A DNA stretch of 64,000 nucleotides, taken from contig JAJEKV010000054.1 of assembly GCA_021234155.1 (NCBI GenBank), forward strand, positions 5,007,962 through 5,071,961. The letters are read 5' to 3'. The notes under the pieces were generated by a model. The model ran no database searches, had not been told where the DNA came from, and was given only the letters and a program-made list of their open reading frames with translations. The position numbers were made by a program, and so were the translations under genes. Of the stretch, positions 3,391-58,123 are shown in pieces (the first letter of the stretch is position 1; each line of letters opens with the position of its first letter). This DNA is from Isoetes taiwanensis (lineage: Eukaryota > Streptophyta > Lycopodiopsida > Isoetales > Isoetaceae).

Positions 3391-3454
3391 CCTTAGAGGA
3401 AATATGGATGAAACAAAAGTTTTTGATAATAGATGCTAGTCCATGTTGCCAGAA

Positions 3455-6828: not shown

Positions 6829-8472
6829 TTATTTGCCATTAGCGATCCAAAGTTGATAGGCCGTGAGGCGAACTGACGTGGTTTGATTCGTGCCTGGAAG
6901 TTGGACTTGAACTTGAGGAAGTTGAGGGCACGCCGTGGTGGTATGACCCCATTCCAAACAATGATAGCACTGAGATTTAGCAGGATCAAAAGGAGGACGG
7001 TTGCTTTGTCCCCGTGGCTGCTGAGATTGTTGATACTGTTGAGGAGGTTGTGCTTGAAATTGCTGAGGTTGATATGACGTCTGTTGCTGAGGCGTGGTCT
7101 GGACTTGATAAACCATCTTTTGCTGGAAGGGTGTAGGATGAGTACGAGTGCATTCTTCCGTGGCATGATTGCACATGTTGCAGCGTTTACAATGAGGAGG
7201 GCCATTGGTCTCATTGGCCAAATGGCCTTGATATTTGCAGATGTGGCACCAAATTTGACTGCGTTGAGGATTTGAGTGTTGAGGCTGAACTGCAGTCTGA
7301 GGTACCATGACAGGAGGAATGAAGAGTAGCTCCTGGAGGGCCACGCCGTGGGAGGAAACATTAACTGAATGATTGATAAGTTCGATGGCCTGCTCCAAAG
7401 TCTTGGGGCGCAGGTATTCAGTCACGAGACGAATAGCCGGAGGAAGGCCCTGGAGAAACCAGACGAGAATCTGGCTTTGCGTGGGGTACTCTTGAAATTT
7501 GCTGAGGAGGATGTGAAGACGATCCGCAAAATCCCGGGCTGACTCCGTGGGCTCTTGCTGAAGATCATTGAGTTGCTTGAGAAGAAGTTGATCATCATCT
7601 GTGGTGCCATAATGAGAAAGGAAAGCAGTCTTCATTTCTGTCCAGTTTTGTTTCCAATGGCTTTTGTTTGCCATGAGCCATTGACGAGGGGATCCACGCA
7701 GCGTGGTGGAAAAGATATGGAACTTCAATTGAGGTTGAGCGTGACCATTTAGGACAGCCAGAGCCTCAAATTCTTCCATATGAGCTTGAGCACTTTGGTC
7801 TAATGGTTTGCCTTTAGTGCTGTCAAAGGTTGGATAGGTCAACTTGAGAGTCTAAAAAGCAGATTGGGAATGGCCTTGTGCATAGAGAGGCGGTGTATAA
7901 GGAGGAACATAATGGGGCGGAACTTCCATGGATTCCGTATGGGGTGGCAAAGGAGCAGAAAGACCCTGAAGATATGCAAAAGGAGGTTCCTGTGGTGGAG
8001 GACCTTGGGGTCCGTGGTCATGAGGTTTGAGATCGGTAAGAGTGTAAACTAAAAGTGTTTGTTGAAAAGAAGGGGATTGAGGATAGGTCTGAACCTGGGC
8101 AGGGCTGAAAGAGACATGGGGATAACCCATTCCTCCAGGGGGAGATGATGGTTGTGAAGGTGGAGAAGTATGGCCAGAGGAGATATGAATGTAGGCACTC
8201 TCTGGAGTGTGGAAATAAGCTGGAGGTGGCTGAACAGGTGTATGATGAGGTGACTGAGGTTGGGAACAATGTTTACACGCTGGAGGAGAGCCAGGACGAG
8301 AGTGAACACGAGGAGTAGGTGGCGCCAATTGAACTCGTGAGCGAATATGGCCTCCCTCAATATCATAACCTGTGTCATACATATCTCAAGCAACTTCGCG
8401 AAGTTGATGTCGCTCCAAACGAGATGCCGTCTGGCTAAGAAGCTCCTTTGGAGTGAAAGCTCGGGCAGACAT
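6829..8472 (-). pseudogene. gag: gag region of Ty3 polyprotein
   Basis: The frame opens with MSARAFTPKELLSQTASRLE at 8,472 and runs through a proline-rich N-terminal part, a capsid-like core (PRQWLMANKSHWKQNWTEMK at about 7,690-7,630) and a cysteine-rich C-terminus. The last knuckle, CYHCLEWGHTTTAC at about 6,970, is a textbook C-x2-C-x4-H-x4-C zinc knuckle; a second Cys/His cluster with WCHICKYQGH lies about 250 bp upstream. The product would form the retroelement capsid and bind its RNA. The frame is continuous with pol but interrupted by TGA at 8,386-8,388, TAG at 7,852-7,854 and TAA at 6,829-6,831, each one C-to-T step from a sense codon. The start was chosen because it is the first ATG after the leader and keeps the frame. 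Confidence 0.8.
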
Positions 8473-9362: not shown

Positions 9363-12300
9363 GGACTGTCCACCGTCAGGTTGGCTTGCTGGAATGTTAA
9401 CACTCTCAACTCTGATAAGGTGTGTACTATGTACGATTTGTTGGAGAGCATAGATGTTGTGTTCTTTTTAGAAACATGCGAGCATGAGGAGAATGGCTTG
9501 CCTGATATTGTTGGTTTTAAGTTATTATCGTCAGTCTGGAATCATAAAGGCTGGGCTCTTAAGGGTTATGGTGGCATTGCCTGTTATGTCACGGAAGAAA
9601 TTGTGCATTTGGTTAATGTGGTTGCTAATAAAGCAAATAAACAATATATAGATTGAATTACCTGGTAAGTTTAGCAAGGTTTATGTTGCTGGGTGTTATT
9701 TCCCACCAAGAGAATCTCCTACATATAAGAAAGGAGACTTGGATAAGGATGATCCTTTTTTCCATCTGGAACAGGATATGTTGGCCTTAAGCCTTTCTGG
9801 GGAAATCTTACTGTTGGGGGATTTCAATGGACGTACAGCAGACAATCAAGCCGCATTAGTAAGCTCAGATGGGGATCCGGAATGGGTTGAGATGTTGGAT
9901 GATGAGAGTGTTTGTGCTCAGGGTTGGAATAGAAACACTGATGATAAAGCAAAATGGATCACTCCACAAGGTAGACATGTTTTACACCTATGCAGTGGTT
10001 TTGATATGGTAATTTATAATGGCACTGCTCACTTTCCTGGGTCTGGCAAACGTACCTGTAAGAATGCTAGTGTTGTGGATTATATTATTGCAAAACCTTC
10101 TTTCAAAGAACAGGTGGTTGGCTTGTCCATTGGGCGTGAAAGAGAGGAGTCCAACCATGCACCTCTTCTCATTGAAGTCTCTGTGATAAGTAAGCACATA
10201 TGTTCTCAATCAGTTAAGCATAATAGACTGCATATGAATTTTGATAAGGCTGATCACTATAGTGCTTTATGTAAAGAAAAGGTAATGTCCACAGATTGGA
10301 CAGGTAATATATGTGATATTAGCAAAAAGCTATTAGAAAATTTACTTTCAGCTTCGTGGGATTGCTTTTTGTCACATAGACAACAGATGGGATTGCCATG
10401 CAATAGGCGGTTTGATTCTGAATGTAAACAGATGAGACGAAAGCTTAGAACATCATATGGATCGGAAAGGGTAGAAATAAGGAAAGTATATACTAAACTG
10501 ATAAGGCGGAATGAAAGAGAATACCTGCACTATAAACATCAAATGATGGTTACAGAACTGCTTGATAATCCTAAAAAGTTCTGGAACAGACTTAAGTCCA
10601 CCCAGCAACATAATCATGCCTTGGATGTGAATGCTCTCATGGCACAAGTGTGCGCGCTATATCATGTACCAGGTATGGATGGGAGGATGACTATTGAACC
10701 TAATGATTGTATGCTTTTTACAATCAATGATGTGAAGAGCGGACTCCGAAAATTATCAAATGGGAAAGCTCCATATGCATATAATATGGTGGCAGAAATG
10801 TTAAAGTGGGCTGGTGATGAGGTTGCTGATAAATTAGTAACACTGTTTAATGCGGTCTTAAGAGATGGTTTTCCCTTGGAATGGCAAATTAACAGGGTTG
10901 TACCTCTTCATAAATCTGGTAATGTCCATGATCCGGGTAATTATCGCATGATTATGATCAGCAGCATATATGCAAAACTGTTTGCTAGCATTTTGGAGTC
11001 TAAAATTAGCACTTGGGCTGAAACTAAAAATGTCAGAGCAGTTGGACAAGCTGGATTTAGACCCAAAAAGTCTACCACCGACCAGCTTGTTACACTCAGG
11101 GCTATGATGGATTCTGTTGTGGGCAAGAGAAAGCCACTATATGCCACTTTTGTAGATTTTGCTAAAGCTTTCGATACGGTAAATAGGAAACGTCTATGGC
11201 AGCATATGGTGGATCTAGATGTGCCCTGTAAATATCGAAATGCTGTGGGTAGACTTTATGAGAAAGTCTTGGTTCAATTATCTTCTCCATTTGTAGAAGT
11301 ATGTGATGAGTGTGTATGCAGTAACATTGGGGTCAAGCAGGGATGTCCCATGTCACCTACTTTGTTTGGGTTATTTATCGATGAACTGGAGAGTTGGATA
11401 CGCTCACAGGGAGGAGATGGTACACGACTTAGTGGATATGTCATCATGTTGCTTCTGTATGCTGATGATGTAGTCCTCCTTGCTAGGAGCATAGGGGGTA
11501 TGCAGGGATACTTAGATACGCTGGCGAAATTTTGTGATGCCAAAGGTATGCATGTTAATTTGAATAAAACTAAGGCTATTGTTTTCGGAGCAAATAAAGT
11601 CGATCATGTACATTTTTATTATAAAGGGGAACCCGTTGAGATTACAGAAGAGTATAAGTATCTGGGCTTGCTTGTTGATAAGAGTTCGACATGGAACCAA
11701 GCAGTGGAACACAGGGTTAATGCCGGTTTGAAGGCTTTATATGCTATGCAAAGGAAGTGTGTGAAGGCTGACATTTGGAATTTTGATATGAAACGCATGC
11801 TATACAAGGTCCTTGTGCAAACAGTTGTGCTATATGGATGTGAGATATGGGGGCCCGGATTGGCTAATGACACATGGAAAAGGGTAGAAAAGATTCAAAA
11901 GAAAAATTTTCATACTAAACTGGGTACTAAGATGCAAACACCATATGACATGATGCTCGCTGAGTGTGGTATGCTCCCATTGGAGATAGAGGCACTATGT
12001 AGACTTCTTAGATATTTGTGTAAAATTTTGTATGATATTTCTGAAAATAGCTTACCCAGGTTAGCATTAGAAGAAACCCGGATGAAGGGGTGGTTTGCAG
12101 ATATTGTTGATTGGCTGAGAAAGTGGGGAATGGATATAAATGAATTGGAAGGCCATAGAGAACACCTCGAAGAGTGGGTGCATGGGCATTACACTAGAAA
12201 AGCATGGCATATTCCGGCAGTTAAGAAGGAATATTATAGAGCAGTTTTCAATCCTGAACTGCGAGAGGCACAATACCTTAGAGAGGCCATATCAGTTAAA

Positions 12301-12684
12301 CATAGACATGCTATATGCAGAATGAGGCTAAGCTCACATCGCCTTGGGGTTGAGATTGGGAGATGGGCAGATATACCCCATGAACTCCGGCATTGTAGAC
12401 TCTGCAATGCGGGGGTGGTGGAGGATGAGGAGCATGTGCTGTTATGTTGTCATGCATACGATGACATTAGGGACAGATATAATATTGTTGATGGATTACT
12501 TGCAGATTTTTTTCTGTACCCAGGGTCTTGCATAAGAGCATACATTGTTGATATGTTGGAGCGTAGGGAGAGTAATTTGAAATCCTTGGATGTTGAAGAT
12601 TTGGAGATAGAGGAGCCTAGTGTTCTCTCATCTGAAGAGGCACTAGATGATATATTCTATAGTCATGAGATTGTAGTTCTTTGA
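9363..12684 (+). pseudogene. LINE ORF2: endonuclease and reverse transcriptase (one frameshift)
   Basis: The endonuclease starts with RLACWNVNTLN and FLETCEHE, where the Glu is the usual metal ligand. A one-base frameshift near 9,650 moves it into the 981-codon frame that starts at 9,739. There the endonuclease continues with LLGDFNGR (Asp 28) and SNHAP (His 140). The RT has VVPLHKSGN, GQAGFRPKKSTTDQL, motif A FVDFAKAFD (residues 471-479), GVKQGCPMSP and the catalytic YADD (574-577), all intact. The C-terminus has CRLCN...VEDEEH...C near residue 886, a conserved Cys/His motif also seen in the other LINEs here. The enzyme would nick target DNA and copy element RNA onto it (target-primed reverse transcription). 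Confidence 0.88.
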
Positions 12685-19493: not shown

Positions 19494-21618
19494 CTAGTAA
19501 TGGTGCCCAGCGTTGCTGGGCATAAGTTGAGAACCTGTGTGGACGAAAACCTATTCAGCCCAGACTTCTTTCCATAAATCTAACATAATGGAAATCAAGC
19601 CCAGTGTTGCTGAGCTATAAACGGTTTTTGTGCATTTAATACCCTTCCCCTTCCCTTTGCTTTGTGCTCTCTCCTGTGTTTCCCCTTTTCCTCATTATCC
19701 CACACACTTTCCTTTTTCCTTTTCCCTTTTTTCTTATTTTTCCTACACGTTATCTTTTTCTCTTCTCTCATTTTTCTTTTTTTAGCCCCCTTCCCTTCCC
19801 TTTCCCTTTTCCTTTTTCTATTTCCCTTTCACTTTCCCTTTTTCTAACAGGCTTTTTCTCTTCCCGTTACATCTTTTCCCCACCCTTCCCATTTTTCACT
19901 TTCCTTTTTTCCTTTCTTTCCTTTTGCTTTTCTTTTTCCCTTCCTATTTTCCTCTATTTTCCCCACCTTTTTATGTGGCCCTTTTCTTCTCCCACCCTCT
20001 TCCTCTTTATCATGTGTTCTTTTCCCCTTCTCTTTTCCCATTTCTCTCTCCCCTTTTCCTTGTGCATTTTTTCCTCCCCTCCCCCCTTTCTGCTTCCCTT
20101 TTCTTTTTTCTTTTCCCTTCCCTTTTCTTCCCTTTCCAACCCTTTCGATTTTCGCCATGCCCTTTTTCCCTTTCCTTTCCTCCTTCCTTTTCATTTTCGC
20201 TTTCCCTTTCCCTTCACTTTTCTTATGCCTCTTTCCATTTGCTTTTCTCCACCTTTTTATGTGCCCATTTTCCTCCTTTTCTCACCCTCCTCCGCCTTTC
20301 CCTCTTCCACTTTCCCTTTTCTCTCTCTCTCTCTCTCTCTTTTTTTTCCCTTCCCTTTTCCCCTTTCCTCATCCGTTCCCTCTTCCCCTTTTCCCTGTGC
20401 CCTTTTCCCATTTCTCTCTTCCTCTTTTTCCATTCATTGCTCTCCACCCTTTTCTCCTTTTCCCCTCCCCTTTCCTCCTTTTCCCACCCTTTCCCTCTTT
20501 TCCTTTTCTCGATGCCTTCTTATCTTCCTTTTTTCCCTCTTTGTCTTTTCCCGTTTCCCTGTCCCTTTTTCTATGTCATTTACCCCTTCCTTTCTCCTCA
20601 CCATTTCTCTCTAACCTTTTCCCTTCTTTTTTTCGATACTCTATTTTCGCTTCCCTTTTTTCTCTTTCTTCACCCTTTCCCTCTTCCCTTTTTTCGCATG
20701 CCTTTTTCCCCTTCCCTTTTCCCCTTTTCCTCCTGCCTTTTTTCTAGGTTCCCTTTTCCCCTTTCCATCTCCCTTTTTCTTTTTTCCTTTCCCTTCCCGT
20801 TTTTCCATGCGCTTTGTTCGTCCCCTTCTTTCCACCCTTTTCCTGTTCACCTTTTCCCCCTCCCTTTTCCTCCTTTTCCCACCATTTTCCTCTTTCCCTT
20901 TTCTCGATGCCTTTTTAACTTTCCTTTTTCCCTCTCTTTTTCTTTTTCTTTTTCTTTTTCCCTTTCACTTTCCCTTTCCCTTTTTCCATGCCATTTTCCC
21001 CTTTCCTTCTCCTCGTTTTCTCACCTTTTCTCTCTAACCTTTTCCCTTCCTTTTTTCGATGCTCTCTTTTCGCTTTCCTTTTCCTCTTTCTTTACCCTTT
21101 CCCTCTTCTCCTTTTTCCCATGCCCTTTTTCCTTTCCCCTTTGCCCTTTTCCTCGTGCTCTTTTTCTAGGTTCCCTTTTTCCCTTTTCACCTCCCTTTTT
21201 TTTTCCTTTCCCTTTCCTTTTCCCATGCGCTTTGTTCGTCCCCTTCTTCCCACCCTTTTCTCTTACCCTTTTTCTCCTTTCCCACCCTTTCTTTCTTCTC
21301 CTTTTTTCCGTGTCCTTTTTCCTTTCCCTTTCCCCCTCTCTATTTCTATTGTTTTTTCTGATTTTTCTCATGCCATTTTTCCCTTTCTTTTCCCTTTTCT
21401 TTGCCCTTTTCCTCTTCTCCTTTTTCCCTTTTCTTTTCCCTTTTACCTGCGCCTTTCCTACATTTCCTTTTTCTTTCCCCTTAAAAGACCAAATCATGAC
21501 TAATCATGGTAGTAGAAAGTCATGCAATGAATCTTGGCCTTTAGATTCAATCAGATGATCTCAGCCATTCGAATTAGGGCTTGATCCATTCAATACGGTA
21601 TAACATTATAATATAGGA
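19494..21618 (-). mobile_element. Non-autonomous Helitron 1
   Basis: On the minus strand the 5' end is A|TCCTATATTATAATG at about 21,618 (an alternative start is 5 bp further out) and the 3' end is a CCCAGC-AAC-GCTGGG hairpin followed by CACCATTA and CTAG|T at 19,494-19,497. This is the canonical Helitron layout: 5' TC, 3' hairpin about 10 nt before CTRR, insertion between A and T. About 80 bp at the 5' end and 35 bp at the 3' end match Helitron 2. There is no Rep/helicase gene; the inside is mainly a polypyrimidine tract. Confidence 0.75.
19642..21480. repeat. 1.8-kb polypyrimidine satellite inside Helitron 1
   Basis: Almost pure C/T on the plus strand, made of short CCTTTTCCC-type units. 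A higher-order period of about 420 bp is visible: TCTCTAACCTTTTCCCTT recurs at about 20,603 and 21,028, TTTTTCTAGGTTCCCTTT at about 20,738 and 21,158, and TGCGCTTTGTTCGTCCCC at about 20,809 and 21,230. The 300-500-codon reading frames of Phe/Pro/Leu/Ser, and the Lys/Arg/Glu ones opposite, are artefacts of composition. Confidence 0.92.
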
Positions 21619-21739
21619 TAGGATGTTTGAAATTCAAATTCTATGTGCATTTAATAACGAGGTCCATATTTAATTCCTCATGGTCAATTATGGAAACGGT
21701 CCTTTTTTTTTAAAAGATCCATTTATTTTAGGCACGACG

Positions 21740-22104
21740 CTTGTCATGCATGCATGAAGGATCCATACATGGCCCCTTTAAAAGCCCGTTCTACTCTTTG
21801 ACTGCAGTTTTAGAAATTTCTGCATTCTCCCTGTTGCCTTGGCGCCTTCTGCTGCTCATCACACTGTCGCCTTCGGATTCTCAGTTTGCCAATCATCTTC
21901 TTGTCGCCTTCGTATCGGCGTCCTCTCCTCCTGAACCAGTTGTCGGCTTCGGATCGCCATAACTTGGCGCCTTCTGCTTCTCATCCGCTTGTCACCTTCC
22001 TCTTGGCGCCTTCTTCTCTTGATTGTCCTATCGCCTGCAAGTCCCTGTACACTTGGCGACGCGTACCAGTTGATGGCATCTCACCCCACGACAGGAGGCA
22101 AAGG
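21740..22104 (+). CDS. Candidate host gene: 5' UTR and first exon
   Basis: A TTTAAAAG TATA-like box near 21,777 is followed by a GC-rich leader with imperfect repeats of CTTGGCGCCTTCTNCT (about 21,836, 21,965, 22,002). An ATG at 22,074 opens MASHPTTGGKG and is followed directly by the donor GTAAGC at 22,105. This is how a plant first exon looks, but no function can be given from about ten residues and the next exon is not certain. The frame is phase 1 at the donor. Confidence 0.35.
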
Positions 22105-31022: not shown

Positions 31023-34000
31023 TCATGTTATGAATGATATAGTAATTATGTAAAAGAGCATTGCATACCTCAGGGAGTTCTCATCATCGCCCTTAGCTTC
31101 TTTAGCCACTAATTCTTGCAACCGAGCCCTAACACTCTTGGGGATCACCACTGACAATGGCCTGGTCTCTACGGCCCAACCATAGTCTATTGTTTTCAAA
31201 GGTTGGTAGCGTGGCGGGTCATTAGGATTGGGTCTCCAATTCTTGCTCCAGCAATCCCTATACTGCATTGCATATGAGGTTCCCTTTCTGGCAATAGGTT
31301 CAAACCAAGAGACAAACACCTCTTCGTAATGTGGGAGATTAGGGTCCTCTATTGGGTCCTCTTCGGCAAAACCCATCCATGTCGGGCAGTTATCATGTGG
31401 TCTGATTAGCAAGAGCATTCCCTTCTTGACATCTTGGTAGGGGTCGAATATTTCAACTGGGTTCTTGGGTCTACCCGAGAAAGGCCCAACGTAATGAGAT
31501 GCTTCAATGTGCTCATCCACAAACACTCTTTCGGGTTCTTCCAATGCACTTTGCCTGGTGCTGGGCCAGAAATCCTGAATGAGAGCTCTACCGGGCTGCA
31601 CGTCACCAAGCACTCGCAACAAGGTGGACCAGTAGTCAATAACTTCATTCATATATGTGTTGGACCATGACTTATCGCCAGCTCTAGAAATAGCTGCCCA
31701 AAGGCATCATGTACTTGGCAATAGAAGCTCTTAATGCACCTATATCTTTCAAGCTCCCATATGGCTGCAGGACCTTAGGTGACCCTCTCGGAATCATAGG
31801 TAAACCTTGGGCATCCTCCTTCCACATTCTGATTCCCTTTTCAGGGAGCCACTCCCTATGCCCCGGCCTCATCTTGTAGAACATTAGTGGCCATCCATCC
31901 TTCATGCAAAACTTGAAGAGTAGAGGTTCCAAGTGACCACATAAACGGTCCTTCTTATCGTGGATAAAACCTTTCACGAATTCCTTCCAATCGTGAACCT
32001 CTGTCACAAGGTAAGGCGAAGGAGCCTTTGAACTACACCGCTCAAGAGTTGCATAAGCTCGGAATAGTCAATGCATCTGATCTTCTCATTAGAGTAGAGT
32101 AGTTTCCAAATAGGGCATCTATGTCATCGTGGGTGTGTCCAACCATCATGAATCCCAGCTGCACTTGATCAAATACACCTAACCAAACCAAGTATGACAA
32201 GTAAGAGAAAAGATATCTATTCTTATTCTGAACCTGAGCAATTATCTAGCTGCAAGTAAAGCCTCCTAGGCAACTTGTTTGCTACCATGGGGCCTTTGAT
32301 AGGAGGCATAAAATCATTTCTACTGCCATTCATCATTTTTGTCCTGAGGTTATCTGTGTTTAAAATTGCTGCACCCCACCGCTTCGATCGATCAAGATCT
32401 CTCAAATGGCCCCAATTATCCTCGATTTATTCTCCAGTGTCTTCAAGGTATGATTCAAGGATCCCACATGAAAATTAGAATCATCGGGCCGAGGTCCAAA
32501 GAGAAGTGGCCCAAGGCACCTATACCATGGCCGTGCATGAGAGCACCACAACACCTTGACCTTGATCGTTCACCCCTCCATACGACTTTGCTAGTTTCTC
32601 TAGACGAGGGACCATGGTCTTATTCTGATCCATCTTATCATGTATAATGGTTAAAGCGTGCTCGGAGATCTATCGCGACAAAGCTCTCCAGGACCGATAA
32701 AGGCTCCCCGCAAGAAATCTGGCGCCATATGCGATTTCCTCTCTATTGCAAGTACCCTTCTTTTCGCTTGGATCTCTGGTCTTAGCAAGCTTTTCCTTTA
32801 TGACAATACAGGTGTTACACTTGGAAAATGCTATCCTCTTAGCTATTGATACCTCTGAATGATTCTCTTTCCAAGCGCATTTAAATGACGAAAGGAGAAA
32901 TATGCTTGCTGTCATCTCAGAACGGAAATATCTACTTCTTGGTATATATCCTTCTTAGTCAAGACGTAAGGTAGCCTCTTAACATTTTGTTCACTACCCT
33001 CGCCGTAATTTTCGAAAGTGTGGCATCGTCTCTGCTTTTCATCTATGAACATAGATAGCACAAAGATTGCCCGACCAAAGTATGAGACCTTGGCTTCTTA
33101 GACCCGAGATTTCCGTGCTCGGCAATTACGTGGCCATCATTGAAGAGCTTCTTCCACTTGTAAAAGTGGAAATGGGAATGCCATAGGCTTTATGCCATGC
33201 TTTCACGCACACCGTTTGTTATTCAACATCGGTTTATGGACTACACCATTTTCGAGCAAAGATCTAGCATGTTATATGCAAAAGTTGTGCGCTCAGGGAC
33301 TTCATGTTCCAAAGAAAAGGTTCTCATGCAAGCTATCTCCGGGATGTAAAATTTGCACAAAGATCGTTTCATGCAAAAGACACGGTGATGACCTGAAGTC
33401 TAGAATAGCCTCAAAGACTAGTTTTTCTTTCACATTTACTCTGTGCTGGGCGTGTTCTGGGTCTCCGATTGACCATGCTGTAAGGTCTCTTTTTGGTGAT
33501 GCCAATTTCGGGTCTAATGGAGTAAGGTTCATTCTCCACATCCTTCTCCTTCACCGCAACCACAAGAGTAGAAACTGGAATGTTATCAACGAGCACGAGG
33601 GCTATGGGCCATCTCACAAGGTCATGCAGTTGGGGCATTTACGCACAAACCCGGCAAACGCGATAGAGATCTTTTTTCGTGCATTGGAAAAATGTTCATG
33701 ATAGTAGCAGCTATCGAGCCTTCCCCTAACTTCACGTCAGACACAGCATGGTTTGGATCGGCAAAAACGATAACACCATAGGCATAAGCCATGTAGCAGC
33801 ATTCATGCATGAGTGTGCACGCCTTCTCAACTAACTCATCTCTAGAAAGCCCTTGCACATGATTCGCCTCATTATCGGGCTAACCCCTCATTCCCTCATC
33901 CCCGCCAGGTCTATGCGTTTTATCCGACTCGGTGGGGTGCATGCTTCCTCATCTCTATCAAGTTGAGCAGCAATGTCCTTCTTGTACCACAACACAAAAG

Positions 34001-46474: not shown

Positions 46475-46648
46475 TGTTAGGGGTAATGTTCGGTGGCAGG
46501 GCATTACACGGGGTAAGGCCACCTGGCGAGCCCCAGTGGCCTTACCCCGCGTAATGCCCTGCCACCCAACATTTCCCCTCGAAATGTTAGGGGTAGGCCA
46601 CATTTGACACGTGCGAGGAGGACATTTTAGACATTACCCTTAACAATC
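46475..46648. mobile_element. Foldback/MITE-like element
   Basis: The interval begins GTTAGGGGTAATGTT and ends ACATTACCCTTAAC, 14-bp terminal inverted repeats with one mismatch. Inside, a long hairpin pairs GGTGGCAGGGCATTAC with GTAATGCCCTGCCACC, and GGGGTAAGGCCAC with GTGGCCTTACCCC, around the loop CTGGCGAGCCCCA (46,523-46,535). The right part contains CGAAATGTTAGGGGTAGGCC, whose inverted partner lies 9.5 kb away at 56,054-56,082. Confidence 0.75.
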
Positions 46649-46941
46649 CGGTGAGCTTGGCGAGGTTGGCGATGGCGCTCCATTAGGCGTTTGCCTTCCT
46701 TGCTCACTTTTTGCCTTGCTCCCGTGCTGTTTTCTGAGTTGCTTCCTTTTTGCGGACTTTTGGTGTTGATTTTGACGCTGGCGCTTCAATTTTCTGATTT
46801 TCACTGGCACTTGCATCTTTGGTCTTGACTCAGCAGCATGATTATTTCCTGTAATCTAAATGTTTTCATGATTATCTATCGATTTTCTCATGATTTTCTT
46901 GAAATGCATGCGTCCTAACATGTTTTCATTGCGTGCCTATT

Positions 46942-47033
46942 GAAGATATTCCATTGAAGGAGTTAAATGATATGCTGGTCAGATTCATGCTTCAAGTAAA
47001 AAAGAAGAATGGAGATCTTTATCCCGCAGACAG
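46942..47033 (+). pseudogene. Tyrosine recombinase gene, N-terminal exon
   Basis: Encodes EDIPLKELNDMLVRFMLQVK then KKNGDLYPADR, followed by the donor GTAAAG. The layout (I-P-x-x-E-L-x-x-x-L-x-x-F, V-R/K-K-K-x-G-x-x-Y-x-P) is the one seen at the start of Crypton-derived recombinase domains (DUF3504-type, as in animal KCTD1/ZMYM-like proteins). The 5' boundary is uncertain. The exon ends in phase 2, which does not match the next recognised exon. Confidence 0.6.
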
Positions 47034-47199
47034 GTAAAGTTTTTTGTGCATTTCTTTTAATTTGTTTTAATATATATAGACCAGTGGCTGTTTCTGCGTC
47101 TGCAGCCTTAGCGTTTTATACAGGGCTATTGGAAGAATGGGGAGGAAAAATCAAGAAAAAAAGATTGGAGAGACGGGAAATCAGGAAGTCAGGTTCAAT

Positions 47200-47355
47200 A
47201 TAATGCCACGGTTCTATTGCGATAGCAATAGAACCGACATTCCTTGGATGGGGACGTCCCTTTCTTCTCGTACCTCCTATTTATTCTGCCTCTCTTCGTC
47301 TGCCATCGGCGTTCTCTTGAGCTAGTTTTCTTCTTCTTCTTCTCTATCCTACCAG
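47200..47355 (+). repeat. Direct repeat A, partner at 52,961-53,128
   Basis: About 155 bp beginning ATGCCACGGTTCTATTGC with a perfect 12-bp hairpin (47,209-47,236, loop GATA). The same block, with a few changes and a 3-4-bp insertion, recurs at 52,966. Both lie in introns of the recombinase gene. Confidence 0.93.
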
Positions 47356-49364
47356 TCTTCGGTCTCAGACCGAGTAGGAAGCAGACCGAGTAGGAATCTC
47401 TTCGCCTTTTCATCAACCCGATGGTTTGAGGGTTCAATATGGTCGGTTCTGGTGCTTCTCTACTGCAGTTCATTGCTTGTTCTGTTTTCCTACAGTAGTT
47501 CGTCACTCTTGGTGGTTCGGTTGTATGTAAGTTTAGTCGTGGCCTCTGGATTTTGATAAGGTTTTAGGGTTGCTTTCGCTAGATTAGGGTTTATCTGTTA
47601 TTTTAGAGTTTCTTTTGTTGGATCGCTTTCAGGAATTTGGGTTATCTGCTTCTGTTCATATAGATTCTTAGATGGGTTCGGGTGAGATTGACTTATTTTT
47701 TCCAATGCGTTATGGCGGTTTTATTTTTTATTGTGATGATTTTCTGGGATCCCAGTCTTGCTTATTTTTGGGAAGCCCATTTTTCTGTAATTTGACCGGT
47801 TAAGTTATTGTTCCTCTATTCTTCATGGACGTTACTGTAGAAGGTTGTCCAGGGCTGTAGGTGTTGAGGCCGAATCTCCTTACCACGCACGCCCTTGAAC
47901 ATGTGCAAAGGTGGCTGCAGATCGATCTGGCTTTTGGATGCCAAATTTCTGGCTTCTTAGTATTTTACGGCAGCCTTGGATCTTAGTTACGGAGTGCTTG
48001 TTTTTGGGCATGGAGACCAAGCGATTGCAGATTACTTTGAGCATTCGATCGAGCTGCGTGCCCGTTCCAAAGGCTTGTTCAGGAGGTCATCCGGTTCTCT
48101 CAAATACAGCATCTCCGGTATTTTATATTCTTGCATGCACATGTTTAGCTCTAACATTTTAGACTTGAATTCTCAACTCATCCAAGGATAGATTGTTCGA
48201 ATGCATCCAAGGATGCAACTGTGGAGATTTGATGTATGGCCAGAAAATGGAGCTGTCATTCCCTCAAACACTATGATTCTATTGTTGCGAAGTGCTGGTA
48301 CAACACCTGGATTTTGTTTTTCCTTTTATTTGCCACCCAACAGCAGTCATACCACTGTTGTCCGTGCTATTCTTAAACTCTACTAACTCTTCTTCTTTAA
48401 CTTTAACAACAAAAGTGTTTATTTTCTGAATAAGCCATTCAACGTCTCTTTGCTTAGCCTATAGCAGAATATAGCAGGACTCCTATTAGAAAGCATTGCA
48501 TGTATTCTGTTAGAGAGCATTGCATCCATTCCGTCAGTGCCACTGTTTCTAGGCCCTCTACATATGGTCTTAACGACATTCTCTGCGTCAACCATGTTAG
48601 ATGTAGGAAGACCATGGCTCATAGCCAGTTCTGCTTTTATTAGTAATAGATCGATCTGCATGTAGTAACAGATAAATCAGTTCATGCCTGCGAGTGCGTC
48701 TTTGCCTTTATGGATCTGTCTTTTGGTAGCAACATGAAGTAGAATATCTCCTTTTTTCTCTATGTGGCCAAGAGATGCATTGTTAGAAATTGTACATTTT
48801 ACCTCTTTGCCCATGTGCAGCAGCACAGTACATAGCAGCCCATCCTTTTGCATCACATCTATCTTTATCAGTTTCCAATACTCTCTTCTTGGAGTTCCAT
48901 TGTGCCCTGTGTGATTTCTCTGATCTGATTCTAAATACTAACACTCATATTGCTTTCGTCCAGAAGAGCCGATAAATTAGTTTGTTCTTTCCATGAGATT
49001 CTCATGAGAGTGTGCAAATTTTTGTGAACTAATTCGCACGTTCCTGTTTCATTCATACTCATTTATACTGATGTTGTATATGTTATACAGGGTTCCATGG
49101 CAATCTCTCCCATATACATTATTCTTACTTGCGCTAATATTGGTCTTATGTTTCGAAGCGTTTCTTGGGCAATACCATACGATCTTCAATTGTAGCTTCA
49201 ACCTTGTGGATCTAACATTGTCCGCAGCCATTTTGATCTGGCCAAGATCTTCGATCTGGAAAGGGCCTGGTTTTTCCTATTATTCTTTCTCTATTTTGCA
49301 ACTATCAAGTCTCTCCGACTGTAAAGTTCCCTCTTTCTTTTTCACTCCATCTAATTTTTATCAG
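47356..49364. other. Intron or unassigned sequence
   Basis: Between the first and second recombinase exons. A stretch at 47,976-48,110 has the frame MDLSYGVLVFGHGDQAIADY and 48,201-48,326 reads MHPRMQLWRFDVWPENGAVI; both look protein-like but have no recognised family or supporting splice pairs. Confidence 0.3.
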
Positions 49365-49457
49365 GTTTGCAAGGGCTTAAATGAGTACTTATGGCGAGGT
49401 GGTTTTATGAACTCGGGGGCTAGGATATATCGATTCCTAAGTGAAGTTGTCTTCTGA
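49365..49457 (+). pseudogene. Tyrosine recombinase gene, second exon
   Basis: After a T-rich tract and TTTTTATCAG, the frame reads VCKGLNEYLWRGGFMNSGAR and IYRFLSEVVF before a stop. It resembles the I-x-x-x-L-Q-R-Y-L-R-x-x-G block that follows the N-terminal block in Crypton-type recombinases. The phase mismatch with the first exon implies a small missing exon or an indel. Confidence 0.5.
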
Positions 49458-49469
49458 GCACAGGTTTCA

Positions 49470-52400
49470 TTCATTATAGAATATTGACGTATTTGTTAGT
49501 TGCATGTTGTTGGTTGATTGACATTACTTTTTATTGCTGGGCAAACTTGAATTTCTATTCCCATTAGGGCAACGTGCATGTGTTTCCAACATTACTTATG
49601 AAGTGCATATTTTTCTAACATTATTTGCGTTCTTTGTTCCTTTTACATCTTTTTTCTTTCTTTGGCTTCATTGCTCCTTCTAATACCCGTGCTTTCATTA
49701 AGCCGTCATTTTTGAATTTCATAAGTGATTTGCTTTGATGTTTTACTTTTATAAGTTCAGATGAACCCATTGCTCATATTTGTTATATCTATTCGTTAGA
49801 TTAGTTTTGTTTCACGGTATTTTGTCGTCATAGTAGTCAATGAGTTTGTCAGCTACATTGGTTCTCTTGTTTAATCTCAAGTGCACTTTGATTGTTGTCA
49901 ATTTTCGTTGTGCCATTTTTCATGTCTCCCATTCTTTGGTTCTCTTGTTTAATCTCAAGTGCACTTTGATGTTGTCAATTTTCGTTGTGCCATTTTTCAT
50001 GTCTCCCATTCTTTTCTGTGTTCTATTTGTCCATAGACTTGGGTGTCCTTATTCGCCCATTCTTTTCGATCCATTTTATCTTTTGTTCTCAGCCATCTCA
50101 TTAGTCCCTTGTGCTCCATGCTTCTACGATTCTTTCACTTTGTTGTCCACAATTGCTTCCCTCCCCTCTTGTCTTGTTTAGCCTTCCACTCTTTCCATAT
50201 TGGTTCTTATGTGATCGTTGTTATGGTTTCATATGATGACTAATTTTCTTGTCTCCCTCTTTTTTTGCATTCCATTTTGCCCATATTTTTGGGTGTCCTT
50301 ATCTATCCATTCTATTTTATGGCTCATTTTTATCTTGACCACCACATTAGCCCTTTGTACCCCTTTGGCTTCTAATGTTTATTGGCTTTGATTTCTACCA
50401 TTTTGTCCCCCCTCTCCAGTCTAGATTAACCACCCATTCTTCTTGTGTTGGATTTGTCACACTTACCGATTTGGCCCCATTCCACCTATTGTTAGTTCCC
50501 TTGTGATCTACTTATCCCAATTGCCATTAATCCTCTTTTCGGCTGCCTTATTGTTTCTATTTTTCATTGAAACATAGGTGTTCCAGAGGATTTTTTTGAG
50601 GTGCATTTGTTGTTGATGTGCATAGATGATTTCATGTACCTCATTACCAAGTTCTGTCAGGATTGACATATAATTGGATGCACTAGACGAGGACGATGTG
50701 TTTGCTATTTATGGCCTTCTTGTTTATGGCTTTTCACATTTTTTGGTCTTTACATCCTTTCTCTTTGCATAGGCACCATAATTCTCAAGTTTTTTGGATA
50801 TCAACTTTCAACATTTTACACATTGCATTCTTCGCACTTTAGTTTGTAACGTTTTGAGACAATGCTTTATTGGTTGGATTCATCTACTTGAGGTCCTTTC
50901 TAGACTATTTGCGTCTGGAATAGGCATAGTTGGATACATTGTTTACAGCTCTGGTCATGTTTATTTATGTTGTTTCTTTGTTCGTTGTTCCGTTTCTGTT
51001 CTATCCGTTCTATTTGTCTTGCACTTGTTACTTTTCCCTTCTATCCTACGGTTCCATTTACTTATTCTGCATTGCTTTGCATTTTAGTTCGATGTGCTCC
51101 AGTGTTCAGGCTCACTTTGGCGCCGTTGCCGCTAATATGTTAGTCTTTATTCTATTGTTCTGTTTACTGCACTGACCTCATCTTCTATTTGACATCCTTT
51201 TGTCCTTTATATCCCATCATGTGCTTTAATCACATTTGTCCACACTTGTTCTATTTGGTCATTAGTCTCCTTAGCCTCCATGGTCTGATTATTCCATTCA
51301 CACTTTTTCAGTTGTTCTAGTTTGGTCATTTGCTCGCCTTTTCGGTCATTTTCTTAGTTCCATGCGCGTATTGTTCGATTCATTGTGCGTCCCTTCCAAC
51401 TTTTATTTACTTTTAGCACTGCATGTTTTGCTTTTAGATAATTATTCCATTATCTCTATACCTTGTCGCTTTAATCTCTATACCTTGTCCCTTTATATCT
51501 CTGTACGTTATATTTTCTTTGTGTTTGATTCTTCAAGGTTCTTTAGTTATGTTTTGCTCTTAAAAGTGTTTCTTTTATTTCCTTCTTCTGCCTCCCATTT
51601 CTATCGATAAATATTATAATTCTGACTCCTTTCTGACTTCTGTTCATATTATCACGCCATTCGTTACTTCATTTTCTCCTATAGCTCCTTTGGATTTGTT
51701 GCCTTTTTCTTTTTGATATCTATGTTAGTTTGGGCTTATCGTATGTTTTGCTGGCATAATGTTCGTTCGTGCATTAATTCAGTTGGATCTGCGTTTGGTG
51801 GTGGTGGTTATTTTTGGTTATTGTCATATTCGCAGATTTTGTTTGTTTTCATCCCAACAGTTCCTTTTTCCATCTTCCACTGCATTGTTCCATTGTTTCC
51901 TTTTAGGTTTTCCATTGCGACAATATTTCGGTACAGTTCCTTTCGCATCTTTCATCGCATTATTTCATTTTGTTCACTTTAAACATTTTGTTATTTCGTA
52001 TTGTCGATCCCTTACTTACCATTTTTGCCTCGCTTATTTGTCCCATTATTCTATTCCTTTTGTTGTCTCATTACTCCATTATCCCTTATGCATTTTGATA
52101 TTCTGGCACTTCTCACTTGCTCCACTTACCTCGTTCTTCCACTTGCTTCATGTTTCCCATCAGCTCCTTACCTATGCATTTTGTTCATTTTGCATTGTTC
52201 ATTTCATATGCATGTCTTCGTCTTACCTATACATTTGTTTCATTTGTTGCATTGACCCGTATAGACTTATTTTTTCCTTCGGCTTTTACTTTTCATATCT
52301 GTTTGGTTTCTGGTTTGTTCAAATTTGCCAAGTTGGTCATCTAGCCGCTCTACTGGTATCCTTCGATCATGTTACATGTGCTCTAGCTTTTTTAGAATTG

Positions 52401-52930
52401 GCTCGTCTCCTTTTTTGGTTTTGAACTTCGTGCCTTTTTTCGCATTGGCCTTTTGTCTATTAGCTTGATCTTGGTTGCTTTTGCATCCATTCGAATCTGG
52501 TTTTTCATCCTGTTTTTCATTGCTGCTACCTAGCTTGACTCCTCTTATACTTAGTTCCTTTTTTGCCATGTGTTTTTGCCATGTGTCTCTTTACCCGTCC
52601 TGTTCTCTATGTCACTATCTGCTCTGCATCCCTTTTATTTGATTCTTTTCTACCGCATGCGATGTTCTCTTTCCATCCGACTTTCATTCCATCTGTCCCG
52701 TTGTTATTCTGTCTGTTCTAAAAGTCCCTCTTGCGTCTTTGGTTGTCTCCAGTTTTGATTCTTTCCACTTGCTCCATATGTCTCATCAGCCTTATCTGTG
52801 CATTTTGTTTTTCCTTTATGCCAGCGACCTTTGGAGACTTATTTCTGCCTTTCTTTATACTATATTTCTTTTTAGCTTCTTTCTTTCTCCTTGCTGTATA
52901 GTTTTGAGATTTGTTCCTCTTCTATCGGCT
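49470..52930. other. T-rich intron sequence
   Basis: Strongly T-rich on the plus strand, with many long but low-complexity open frames rich in Phe, Leu, Ser and Cys. A near-exact duplication (TTCTCTTGTTTAATCTCAAG, then TGCACTTTGAT) occurs at about 49,862 and 49,940. No protein family is recognised. It reads as a 4.6-kb intron of the recombinase gene. Confidence 0.5.
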
Positions 52931-54079
52931 GTCATATGTGCTATCATAGGACCCATCCTAGGAATGCCACGGTTCTATTGCGATAGCAATAGAACCGACA
53001 TTCCTTGGATGGGGACGTCCCTTTATTCTCGTACCTCCTATTTATTCTGCCTCTCTTCATTCGTCTGCCATCGGCGTTCTCTTGAGCTAGTTTTCTTCTT
53101 CTTCTTCTCTATCCTACCAGTCTCCCTCACCCTCCCTCCCTTGATGGATTGTCTGCACTTGATGGTGGCAATCGTTCCGTTTGTTTCTATATTCTTTAAG
53201 TGCATTATTCATTTTTTCTCAGCGTGGCATAGTAGCCTCTGAGGCATACTTATCATTCTTTCTCAGTGTGGCGATGTAGCCTCCGAGGCAGCACTAGTCG
53301 ATGTTCCCGCGATGGTCATTGTTGCAGGGTTTTGGTTCATTCTATGATGGGGGCTAGTGGCTTTCTATTTCATGTATAGTCTCATTTCTTCTCGGCGTGG
53401 CACTGTAGCCTCCGAGGTATACTTATTACTTCTTTCTTTCTCGGCATGGCACTGTAGCCTCCGAGGCATTCTTCTTTTTCATTCTCTCTCGGCGTGGCGC
53501 TGTAGCCTCCGAGGCAGCACCAATCAGATGATTTTTCCTGCGATGGTCATTCCGCAGATGGTTCTCGATTGGTCGGCTGTTGTCACTTCCTCGGCGTGGC
53601 CCTGGAGCCTCCGAGTGCTATTATATTCTTTCTATATGATTACAGTTTGGCACTTGTCCAGGCTTAAAGTTCCTAACTTTCTAACGGGTCGTTCTCATTT
53701 TCAGACTTTCCATTGCAGGTCTTGTTTTTTGCAGTTTTGTCAGTTGGCAGCGCCATCATGTGTGCATCAACTCACTTTTGGCGAATCTTGCTCATTAGAG
53801 CGGGATTTTTCATCCCGATGAGGAGCGGTCGCCAGTTTTTTCACGTTTGCATATACCAAGTAGTGGAACAATCATCTTTGATCTGGCACTCTTCAATTTT
53901 TATCATGCTCTCGATAAATTGTCTAGTTTCAGAGCATGTTCAATTTTCAAGCTTTTCATATTTTCTACCCCCTAGTAGGGGAACAATATGTACTCAAAAG
54001 ATTTTACAAAAGCTCAATGAGAACACCACTTCACTTACCCGGCCGTCATATGTGCTATCATAGGACCCATCCTAGGAAT
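52931..54079. repeat. 1.1-kb segment between 35-bp direct repeats
   Basis: GTCATATGTGCTATCATAGG plus ACCCATCCTAGGAAT occurs at 52,931-52,965 and 54,045-54,079. The second copy ends in the splice acceptor of the recombinase core exon. Between them lie direct repeat B (52,966-53,128, partner of repeat A) and six small hairpins. A 35-bp duplication is too long for a usual target-site duplication and suggests a tandem duplication or recombination event. Confidence 0.85.
53217..53615. repeat. Six copies of a 26-bp hairpin
   Basis: Copies at 53,217-53,242, 53,261-53,286, 53,391-53,416, 53,440-53,465, 53,488-53,513 and 53,590-53,615. Each is a variant of CTCGGCGTGGCACTGTAGCC followed by TCCGAG, exactly 26 bp, with outer arms CTCGG/CCGAG. 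Spacing is irregular, so they are dispersed motifs rather than a simple tandem repeat. Confidence 0.93.
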
Positions 54080-54533
54080 TACTAATGACACTAGAGCTAC
54101 CTATGCTTTTGTATTAGCTGCTAGGATCCAAGGTGTTGGCACTAAGAGTGTTAGGGCACCTTCTATCAGTTTCAATTTAGAAAGGGACCTGTTAGCATAT
54201 GTGGATCATCAAATGACGTTTAATCAGGGCTGTCAGAAGCGTCTGTTTTTTTTTACCTTCGTTTAAGGTTTGAGATAAGGGCAGCGACAGAACTTTATAA
54301 TTTGCTGGATAGTGATCTTTCTATTGGCAGTGATGACTGTGGTGAGTTTATAGAATACAGTAGAAGGGAGAGTAAGAATTATCAGGTAACTGCAATAAGA
54401 TATGATAGCAGTCATTTTAAGGAGCCTGTTCGCACGCATGAGGCAGATTTCGTCATGTCTTTTAAGCAATATCTTAGGCATATGTCTGCCAAAGATTTCT
54501 ATTAACATGCCTGCTGGAAATGTAAGTAGTTTG
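54076..54533 (+). pseudogene. Tyrosine recombinase gene, core exon
   Basis: The exon follows a CATCCTAG acceptor. It contains DTRATYAFVLAARIQGVGTK, SISFNLERDLLAYVDHQMTF, then, after a frame disturbance near 54,240-54,280, GLR and a stretch with YNLLDSDLSIGSDDCGEFIE and YSRRESKNYQ, and finally MSFKQYLRHMSAKDFY. The GLR motif is where the first catalytic Arg of Crypton-like recombinases sits. A second frame change near 54,503 leads to INMPAGN and the donor GTAAGTAG at 54,534. A stop just before GLR shows the copy is not translatable as it stands. Confidence 0.6.
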
Positions 54534-54592
54534 AGATTTTTTATTTTATTGCTTAGCTTGAGATTCAAAGATTATTACTGATTGTTCCTTTT

Positions 54593-54791
54593 CAGGTTTG
54601 GTATTCCCACAATAATGTTGGACTGAAGATGATAAAATTTTGGTTTAAGACAATGGGTTCTTTAATTGATCATGGGGAGATCTCAAATAAATGTGGACGC
54701 GTTGCAACAGTTACACGATTGGCGATGGCAGGTGCTCCTGCTGAGGTTGGTATGAGATCATAGGGCATCGATCACTTGAAGCATATGTAAA
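54593..54791 (+). pseudogene. Tyrosine recombinase gene, catalytic C-terminal exon
   Basis: After the acceptor CTTTTCAG the frame joins the previous exon in phase: VWYSHNNVGLKMIKFWFKTM, then ISNKCGRVATVTRLAMAGAP. This matches the box-II region of Crypton recombinases, T-N-H-S-G-R-K-T..T-R-L. The His of H-x-x-R is Lys here, so this copy lacks one catalytic residue. After a one-base deletion near 54,763 the sequence GHRSLEAYVK restores the T-G-H-R-S..Y pattern that holds the third catalytic position and is followed by the donor GTAAGTG. Confidence 0.7.
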
Positions 54792-54858
54792 GTAAGTGCT
54801 TGTAATTTCTGCTTGTAAAATCTTGTTATAATTTGTGCTGATAAGTTCTCTTTCTTAG

Positions 54859-55221
54859 GTATGACAGGGCGAAGGATATTCAGATGCATGCCGCTATGTC
54901 TATTATCTCTAATCCAGTTATTGAAACTGGTGCTCCCAGGACTTATGAATCAATGTTAACTGCTAAGATTGAAAAGAAACAAATGAATGACATCTCGTGT
55001 TTTAGTTGCAGTTGATCCAAATGAGAGTGTTGGCCAGCAAGTATCTGTGGAGGCAGGTTCAGTTAAGGGGAAGGAAATTGCTATCCCGATTTGTGTTTCT
55101 AAGGCTCCAGGTTTTGGAAATGACAAGGAAAATGCTAGTACTCAGTTTAGTCTCTATGCGGATATTTCTGATGAAGCTTTATTGGATTTAAAAATTCCAT
55201 CGTCAAAAACTCTAGTCAGTG
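54859..55221 (+). pseudogene. Tyrosine recombinase gene, tail exon
   Basis: The 67-bp intron 54,792-54,858 (GTAAGTG...TTCTTAG) is consensus and keeps the frame: ...YVK joins YDRAKDIQMHAAMSIIS. A frame change near 54,993 leads to TSRVLVAVDPNESVGQQVSV and DISDEALLDLKIPSSKTLVS, up to the donor GTAAGTC at 55,222. The tail has no recognised domain. The clean, short intron shows that the gene was adapted to plant splicing before it decayed. Confidence 0.6.
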
Positions 55222-55603
55222 GTAAGTCTCTGCGGCATGTTTTTGGTTTCTCCTTTTTAGGAAGTGTGAGCAATTGTTTCTTCATTCAGTGCACTGATCC
55301 AAGTTAGATCAAAGATGCATTGTAGAAATATCATGGGGAATCTTCTAATTCTGATAAATCTGGTAGTCTATCATCTGATAAAACCTGTTGAATGCCTGCA
55401 ATGGCAAATGAAACTGTTTTTGAATGAAACTTTTGTAATGAATTGTAGATTGCTTGAAGCACTACAACTTTTGAATGGAAACTGCTTTATGATATGAAAT
55501 TTTGGTGTAAGTGACTAGAAATAATGTGAATTTGAATTCAATTGTTGAATTGTATTGTAAATTTGAATGTATTGTGAATTATAATGTATAGCTGGCACCA
55601 CTG

Positions 55604-55945
55604 TTGTTTCCGTACGGGTACGGTACCTTTCAAGTACTTAGCATACCGTACCAGAGGTACGGTACGTACGAAATGAAAAATGAAATGTTTTTGCTTCAAA
55701 TTTTTGGAGTTTTCAACACAAGTACGGTAAGTATTTTAAAGGTACTGTACGTATTTTATAGGTATTTTATAGGTACTGTAAGTATTTTACAAGTATTTTA
55801 TAGGTACGGTACGTATTTTATAGGTATGGTAACAACACGTTTTAACGTACTGGTTTTTTTTTTTGGTACGTTAAAAACTCAGAGGTACGTTACGAGGTAT
55901 GATACGTAAAATACTTACAGTACCGTACAGGTATGGTAAGTACGT
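55604..55945. repeat. GTAC/TACGTA-rich tract
   Basis: Dozens of overlapping GTAC, GGTACGG and TACGTA motifs separated by TATTTTATAGG. Units such as GTACGGTACGTATTTTATAG recur without a fixed period. The tract lies between the recombinase gene and the right inverted repeat. Confidence 0.85.
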
Positions 55946-56082
55946 AACAACACTGGCTGGCACAAGCATTGTAAGATGGCACTAGCTAGGACAGGTGGCA
56001 CTAGCACCTTGCCAGGTGGGACAGGAAAGTTATAGGATGTAAGAATCGTCAGAGAAATGTGGCCTACCCTAACATTTCGTGC

Positions 56083-57072: not shown

Positions 57073-57449
57073 TTGTTAGATTTTCGTTACTCATTTTTCC
57101 TTCTTCGTCAAACAAATGACAACCACATTCATTAATTTTAATCAATCATTGAGTTGAGGGATATTGATTAAATTTACTAACCTTCTTCAACATATATCTT
57201 GTTAGATTTTTGCTACTCGTCTTTTCTTCTTCGCCAAACAAATGACAACTACATTCGTTAATTTTAATTAATCATTGAGTTGAGGGATATTGGTTAAACT
57301 TATTAACCTTCTTCAACACATATCTTATTAGATTTTTGCTACTCGTTTTTCCTTCTTCGCGAAACAAATGACAACCACATTCATTAATTTTAATTAATCA
57401 TTGAGTTGAGGATATTGATTAAATTTACTAACCTTCTTCAACACATATC
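57073..57449. repeat. 126-bp tandem repeat, three units
   Basis: Units start at about 57,073, 57,199 and 57,325 with TTNTTAGATTTTTGCTACTC and contain AACAAATGACAACCACATTC and AATCATTGAGTTGAGGG. Unit identity is high (only a few differences each). Confidence 0.95.
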
Positions 57450-58123
57450 CAAGTATTTTTTGATAAAACCCAATAGTAGATAAGATAGTAAATATAACAA
57501 ACACAAATAAATAAGTATAAAACTATATTCAGAGAAGGTCCTTATCAAGAGGACTCGTTAACAAAATATTAATGACATATTCAACAAAATTTGGACTTAT
57601 TCAGATTTAATAGATAACACTTCAAGAACGCCATTATAAAAATATATGTATTGTGTGATTCTTCTTGATTGTTATAATTTTTATAAGTTTATCTTTAAAT
57701 TAAAACTATAATGGTTATCAAAGAATAAACTTGATTTTCAAACTAATTTTTATTTAAATCTATTTAGAATTAGACATTTCAAGAATATAAAAATTTCAAT
57801 TTTTATTGATTTAACAGATTCACGATTTAGCAATCATGATAATTAAATGAAATCTGATGGTTTGATAAGCGATTGACTTAAAACTATTATTAGAATTTCA
57901 CAATTTACAAACTTTTACACTTTTAAAAATACTTTAAGGAAGGTTTTAGGTTGAAATTAATTAAATGATATAAAGTTATTGGTTTAATAATAACTATTAA
58001 ATAATTTATTATTGATGAAATAAAAATATTTTAATCAAACATAAACGTAATCATTTAATTAATTTCAATGTAAAACTTTCTTTAAATATTTTAAAAAATA
58101 TTTTACTTTAGTAAGTATCATAT
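57450..58123. other. Very AT-rich sequence without a gene
   Basis: Over 75 percent A+T by eye, with short palindromic AATTAATT and AAATATTTTAAAAAATATTT stretches around 58,050-58,110. No coding signal. Confidence 0.6.

Follow-up and report, generated by a model that had tools for sequence, protein, structure and literature searches.

A dead, interrupted copy of a probable Crypton-like tyrosine recombinase transposon in the genome of the quillwort Isoetes taiwanensis

We analyzed a 64-kb stretch of the genome of the lycophyte Isoetes taiwanensis (contig JAJEKV010000054.1; this whole stretch is referred to as the window) and identified one broken, interrupted copy of an element of approximately 3.2 kb at 46476-56079. 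This is very probably a dead, interrupted copy of a Crypton-like tyrosine recombinase (YR) DNA transposon from a lycophyte genome, and we consider the family to which it belongs well supported as a YR mobile element. A preliminary description of this DNA, made from the letters alone, had proposed an intron-containing plant gene for a Crypton-like or DUF3504-type tyrosine recombinase. That proposal was upheld, as the order of the blocks fits a YR, the same exons are present in other genomic copies, and the intact copy L021 gave matching profiles. The window copy is dead because it has lost the beginning of exon 1, has an insertion within exon 2 and departs from the reading frame at several points, in agreement with the broken frames described earlier.

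To define the family, we searched the genome (1,658,258,908 bp in 1110 contigs) with positions 54600-54800, corresponding to exon 3. This gave 35 genomic matches from 34 candidates, the window included, and 20 of the matching copies were fetched with their flanks (L009-L028). We built a four-exon model from L011 and transferred it to 18 aligned copies, with the start codon and splicing predicted from the DNA. All three introns were kept in 17 of these 18 copies, the exception being L018, in which intron 1 falls within a larger deletion. Introns measured 57-91 bp overall: intron 1 was 57 bp in 15 copies, 59 bp in L010 and 85 bp in L023, while intron 2 ranged from 63 to 74 bp and intron 3 from 57 to 91 bp. 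Splice-site bases were altered in some broken copies. L021 carried an uninterrupted open reading frame (ORF) of 590 amino acids with no stop and with GT-AG introns, L014 and L020 had one stop each, and the other 15 copies had at least 12 stops after naive splicing, many of them from frame changes. The element would encode a single protein of about 590 amino acids in four exons, with the predicted order acidic N-terminal region, core-binding domain, DUF3504/phage-integrase-type catalytic domain and C-terminal extension. The first fungal Cryptons were reportedly described with introns, and introns as such may not be new.

The features of the window copy are listed in Table 1. Compared with L010, about 800 bp are missing around 46932/46933, and additional sequence is present that ends near 55955. 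The second exon of the family begins at 47106 (SLSVLYRAIGRM...), and the segment 46580-46605 is the inverse of 56055-56079. We looked for a second copy of the element inside the 64-kb window and found none. Features of the preliminary description that were confirmed are the N-terminal block at 46942-47031, NKCGR of box II at 54686-54700, GHRSLEAYVK at 54763-54792 and both GT-AG introns near the catalytic end. Other parts of that description had to be revised. The introns of the window are 72, 74 and 67 bp rather than large, and the supposed large intron is the insertion at 47205-54079. The GLR motif, as quoted, has a stop codon on either side in its own frame (TAA GGT TTG AGA TAA); the in-frame box I of the window is YLRLRFEIRAATEL.

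Table 1. Features of the Crypton-like element copy in the window
Feature	Position	Strand	Basis or remarks
Whole Crypton-like element copy, interrupted	46476..56079	+	Left end GTTAGGGG, right end CCTAACATTTCG; terminal motifs common to other copies
Left end, long near-perfect hairpin followed by inverted right-end sequence	46476..46605	+	Inverted repeat 46479-46522/46536-46579, 93%
Exon 1, surviving 3' part, core-binding region IPLKELNDMLVRFMLQVKKKNGDLYPAD	46933..47033	+	Upstream, about 800 bp present in copy L010 are absent
Intron 1, 72 bp	47034..47105	+	GT-AG; copy alignment
Exon 2, first part (SLSVLYRAIGRMGRKNQ...)	47106..47204	+	Copy alignment
Later insertion of another repeat, two units, common termini, AAT at both ends	47205..54079	+	
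Exon 2, second part	54080..54521	+	Box I Arg 54266-54268, beta-hairpin Lys 54374-54376; frame broken
Intron 2, 74 bp	54522..54595	+	GT-AG
Exon 3	54596..54791	+	Box II Lys 54689-54691, Arg 54698-54700; His 54766-54768; frame broken before GHRSL
Intron 3, 67 bp	54792..54858	+	GT-AG
Exon 4, opening at nucleophile Tyr (codon 54860-54862), then C-terminal extension	54859..55307	+	Frame broken
Right end, finishing CCTAACATTTCG	55956..56079	+	

The 6.9-kb segment that splits exon 2 was absent from 18 of the 20 fetched copies, in which the position equivalent to 47204 joins 54077-54094 within 23 bp, and it is therefore a later insertion. The two exceptions were L009, which is truncated, and L018, which has a deletion there. 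L010 represents the uninterrupted site and has AAT once, compared with AAT at both ends of the insert in the window. The insertion is itself repeated, with 18 genomic matches to 49300-49470. The N-E-Y-L block (49365-49457), described earlier as an exon of the recombinase, lies inside it, and its frame, judged by eye from ORF lists, is not kept in the two diverged relatives of the insert that this check covered (L048 and L049, 71 and 73% identity; closer copies have 86-100%). We rejected this block as a Crypton-like exon. Exon 1 joined to N-E-Y-L matched the QRICH1 profile at E 3.6e-4 with 21 bits, compared with 17 bits for exon 1 alone and 14.8 bits for the true exon pair of L021; the higher score of the joined blocks is taken as chance. 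The insertion consists of two tandem units, with similar starts at 47202-47358 and 52963-53123 (97%) and similar ends at 52926-52965 and 54040-54079. At its left end a perfect palindrome, CGGTTCTATTGC-GATA-GCAATAGAACCG, precedes a stretch that repeats its right end in inverted orientation. This layout resembles that of the Crypton-like family, and the insertion may be a non-autonomous YR-type element.

Profile searches pointed to a tyrosine recombinase of the DUF3504 type. Exon 1 of the window alone had QRICH1 as its sole Pfam match (E 0.014 and 0.0064). The L021 protein matched, from N to C terminus, QRICH1 (E 0.031), DUF3504 (E 0.0023; core 6.3e-4) and, with the core only, Phage_integrase (E 0.12), and it also matched PHROG integrases (E 7.3e-5, 0.0052 and 0.015). 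Among eight subfamily members, DUF3504 was matched by six (best E 1.1e-5), QRICH1 by three and Phage_integrase by two, and five matched the PHROG_1 integrase. With seven shuffled or reversed cores as controls, Pfam yielded no recombinase family (lowest E 0.024), and one roughly reversed core matched a glycosyltransferase among the PHROGs (E 0.022). Searches of NCBIfam gave nothing useful with pieces of the window and one weak histone match with L021, and searches of IMG/VR and prokaryote genomes likewise gave nothing useful.

The active site of L021 reads R255, K291, K381-xx-R384, H407 and Y416. Among the copies that cover each codon, counting the window and duplicated insertions (L012/L017 and L015/L016), R255 of box I was present in 18 of 20, K291 of the hairpin and K381 of box II in 21 of 21, R384 of box II in 15 of 21, H407 in 20 of 21 and Y416 in 21 of 21. 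We assembled a subfamily set from 11 proteins, L021 and its relatives L059-L068, with L063, L067 and L068 outside the alignment. K-x-x-R was present in all eight aligned subfamilies, L021 and seven relatives with 46-54% identity to it; the unaligned L063 and L067 read NKSGR and L068 reads NKYGR. Since Lys occupies this position in 21 of 21 copies and eight of eight subfamilies, it is the family's own residue, and not the sign of a dead copy for which it had been taken. The preliminary description had also named, as support, a match to DUF3504/Crypton with R-H-x-x-R-Y in related copies. Matches to DUF3504 were obtained, in L021 and in six of the eight subfamilies. In the family, R, R and Y of the Crypton tetrad R-H-R-Y are present and Lys stands in place of the His, in a box II whose general form in tyrosine recombinases is H/K-xx-R. 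The spacing from R384 to H407 is 23 residues and that from H407 to Y416 is 9, the same spacings as in XerD. The later His is replaced by Gln in L059, the sole such case among the eight aligned subfamilies. This spliced relative, 46% identical to L021, is without intron 2 and has no stop in the matched catalytic stretch; it is a candidate altered or domesticated enzyme.

Tyrosine recombinases are also used by the retrotransposons DIRS, Ngaro and Viper, and one study traces the plant ALOG domain to DIRS-type elements (PMC3537659), which counts in favor of the window copy being a remnant of such a retrotransposon that has lost its reverse transcriptase part. However, in the four copies with listed ORFs the YR was the sole gene seen, and neither reverse transcriptase nor RNase H was found beside the recombinase exons (ORFs read by eye, with no profile scan of the other ORFs). 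In addition, introns are kept in 17 of 18 copies, which would not be expected after repeated copying through RNA, and the profile similarity is to DUF3504. A retrotransposon origin is therefore highly improbable, despite the shared type of enzyme.

Comparison of the copies established two defined ends for the element. The left end GTTAGGGGTAATGTTCGG, with up to three changes, was found in 17 of the 20 copies (none found in L009, L019 or L023), and the right end CCTAACATTTCG in 18 of 20, lying further out in L012 and L017. The left end of the element forms a long hairpin, of -114 kcal/mol in L022 when folded as RNA, and beyond it the right-end sequence recurs in inverse orientation. After duplicate insertions (L012, L016 and L032) had been dropped, 32 left junctions remained. 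In 25 of these, at least three of the four bases preceding GTTAGGGG were T (binomial tail 5e-21 against an expected rate of 0.087), indicating a target preference. T followed the right end in 15 of 23 cases. The right end itself reads ATTTC-G, and the T-rich bases at the left junctions resemble this ATTTC.

We used the joined flanks of L031 to find related loci without the element, and among the places listed 11 span the junction. All nine empty loci that were fetched (L050-L058) read through it as TAT-GT followed by ATCCC or GTC, although L056, L057 and L058 are less exact, with gaps near the junction. At this locus there was therefore no duplication beyond G or GT, and no deletion. A target-site duplication of constant length, of the kind made by DDE transposases, was not seen at this locus against its nine empty sites or in the flank listing. 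These junctions agree with YR strand exchange in which the spacer is poorly matched, and are unlike the constant duplication of a DDE transposase. The left-end hairpin and the subterminal inverted copy of the right end are features that would suit a DDE- or Helitron-type element which had captured a recombinase gene and was moved by another enzyme. We assign this alternative very little probability, given the absence of a longer duplication at the one locus read, the absence by eye of a second transposase-like ORF in the four listed copies, and the insertion of the element after T-rich bases.

These observations suggest that the transposon probably moves by YR-mediated integration of a putative circle. 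The recombinase would excise the element as a circle whose junction is predicted to read CCCTAAC-ATTTC-GTTAGGG, that is, two inverted half-sites flanking a 5-bp spacer. The circle would then integrate at short T-rich sites before G or GT, without a staggered target duplication, such that the left flank would retain the target pentamer and the right end would retain ATTTC. This would be comparable to the coupling sequences of Tn916, whose integration leaves a target spacer at one end and an element spacer at the other. The succession of strand exchanges is inferred, as would be any activity today.

The family extends well beyond the copies used to build the model, as the preliminary description had anticipated in calling it worth tracing. 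Scoring the best 40 of 299 first-look candidates for the left end gave 80 matches, because the hairpin matches both strands. The L021 protein gave at least 162 matches when the best 74 of 2903 first-look candidates were scored; these are counted by exon and are therefore not copy numbers. Among the matches listed, relatives had 45-70% protein identity, several of those down to about 45% being stop-free in the matched exon. Gene-less elements that keep the ends were also found, one of 255 bp in L020 and, at L033 and L038, two of 1078 and 1146 bp, respectively. L033-L044 were considered as short miniature inverted-repeat transposable elements and rejected, as no right end lay within 780 bp in 12 of 12. 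Three of these 12 were extended: L033 and L038 proved to be gene-less elements of about 1.1 kb, and L041 had a similar layout in which the right-end motif was not found. Divergence between L021 and L010 at the three codon positions was 4.9, 3.4 and 12.8%, the ratio of nonsynonymous to synonymous substitution (dN/dS) was 0.13-0.51 in 12 chosen copy pairs, and nearest-neighbor divergence among copies was 2.7-9.0%. The codon bias and dN/dS show past selection at the protein level. On this evidence, the family had a history as a protein-coding mobile element, followed by decay.

The window copy could be viewed as a pseudogene of a domesticated, single-copy plant DUF3504 gene, similar to the animal ZMYM and QRICH1 genes, in that it contains introns, has a C-terminal extension and is weakly similar to DUF3504 and QRICH1. 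Host genes of this type (ZMYM2/3/4, QRICH1, KCTD1, KIAA1958 and WOC) share with the quillwort family these weak matches in the same order. However, they are single-copy and have lost catalytic residues, most of them in the animal genes according to PMC3212892, whereas the quillwort family is multicopy, with dozens of dispersed matches, common sharp transposon ends, a target preference, gene-less derivatives and retained catalytic residues. Since its termini are common to other copies, this alternative is refuted for the window copy, and we regard it as very unlikely; a domesticated relative may exist at the loci of 45-55% identity. Fungal or oomycete contamination is the least probable of the explanations considered, as copies lie on many contigs, several of them tens of Mb long, and the window copy is on a 9.8-Mb contig.

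The Crypton-like transposon that we propose resembles described Cryptons (CryptonF, S, A and I) in that the sole gene seen is a DUF3504/Crypton-type YR and no reverse transcriptase was seen, the one locus read has no real target-site duplication, gene-less derivatives exist, and target and element end are similar over a short stretch. It differs in its land-plant (lycophyte) host, in Lys at the box-II His position, in the long left-end hairpin with an inverted right-end copy, and in its own N- and C-terminal extensions, for which L021 gave no GCR1_C or C48 match in profile searches. Bacterial and phage tyrosine recombinases share the PHROG integrase matches and the XerD-like spacings of 23 and 9, whereas the quillwort gene is eukaryotic, spliced and weakly similar to them in sequence.

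Several observations weigh against a Crypton-like assignment. All Pfam scores of L021 were under the curated cut-offs, the best for DUF3504 being 20.3 bits against 29.7, and searches against solved structures yielded no recombinase, the only matches being a Tudor-domain chain (E 0.81) and, with a profile, a designed binder (E 0.28). Described Cryptons have His at the box-II position that is Lys here. Under a single fixed splice model, 17 of the 18 aligned copies carry stops or frame changes. The pentamer is imperfect and T-rich, compared with the exact direct repeats of 4-6 bp in fungal and oomycete Cryptons, and it agrees with ATTTC at a mean of 3.1 of 5 positions and is identical in one of 32 cases. 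Only one insertion, L031, contributed an empty site; the base following its right-end G is C, against T in the empty loci, and L032, which duplicates this insertion, has a different right junction. We leave formal Crypton membership open on account of the box-II residue, the direct repeats and the absence of a tree with CryptonF, S, A and I.

In its accessible part, Kojima and Jurka 2011 (PMC3212892) describes 94 Cryptons from animals, fungi and stramenopiles, with oomycetes and a diatom included, and Chlamydomonas, in a tree legend, is the sole plant named there. The same part reports direct repeats of 4-6 bp in fungal and stramenopile groups and none in animal groups, and gene-less derivatives in some. 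Cryptons were so far undescribed in Arabidopsis according to a review (PMC7385966), and a table in PMC4438587 places Crypton among the superfamilies found in all groups studied; their presence in plants is thus not unheard of. The term 'Crypton' occurs zero times in the main text of two Isoetes genome papers (including PMC8566536). No description of lycophyte Cryptons emerged from searches of the open-licence literature, which brought up PMC11630846 and PMC6294377 and had Repbase and subscription papers outside their range.

Other features of the window included a Ty3/gypsy-type retrotransposon at 3393-7851 (-), with gag, RNase H and integrase zinc-finger profiles and weak protease and reverse transcriptase, and a LINE-like open frame of 1010 amino acids with a reverse transcriptase domain at 9652-12681 (+). 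A nearly pure pyrimidine strand was present at 20001-22000 (GC skew -0.64, AT skew -0.66), an open frame of 227 amino acids with no Pfam match at E 0.01 at 31023-31706 (-), and three tandem copies of a 126-bp unit at 57073-57450.

We give about an even chance to a broader proposal, in which true Crypton-type YR transposons have undergone a large and diverse radiation in lycophytes that was active until recently. These elements would form a separate plant group with K-xx-R in place of H-xx-R and with ends that carry a long hairpin and an inverted copy of the recombination half-site, and would drive gene-less derivatives genome-wide; some stop-free relatives of 45-55% identity may be domesticated. 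Little is known of YR DNA transposons in land plants. With an uninterrupted gene copy, ends that are defined, a target rule that can be read and an empty site, this plant family would make Crypton-type integration directly testable, and its naturally Lys-containing box II is available for comparison with the His enzymes.

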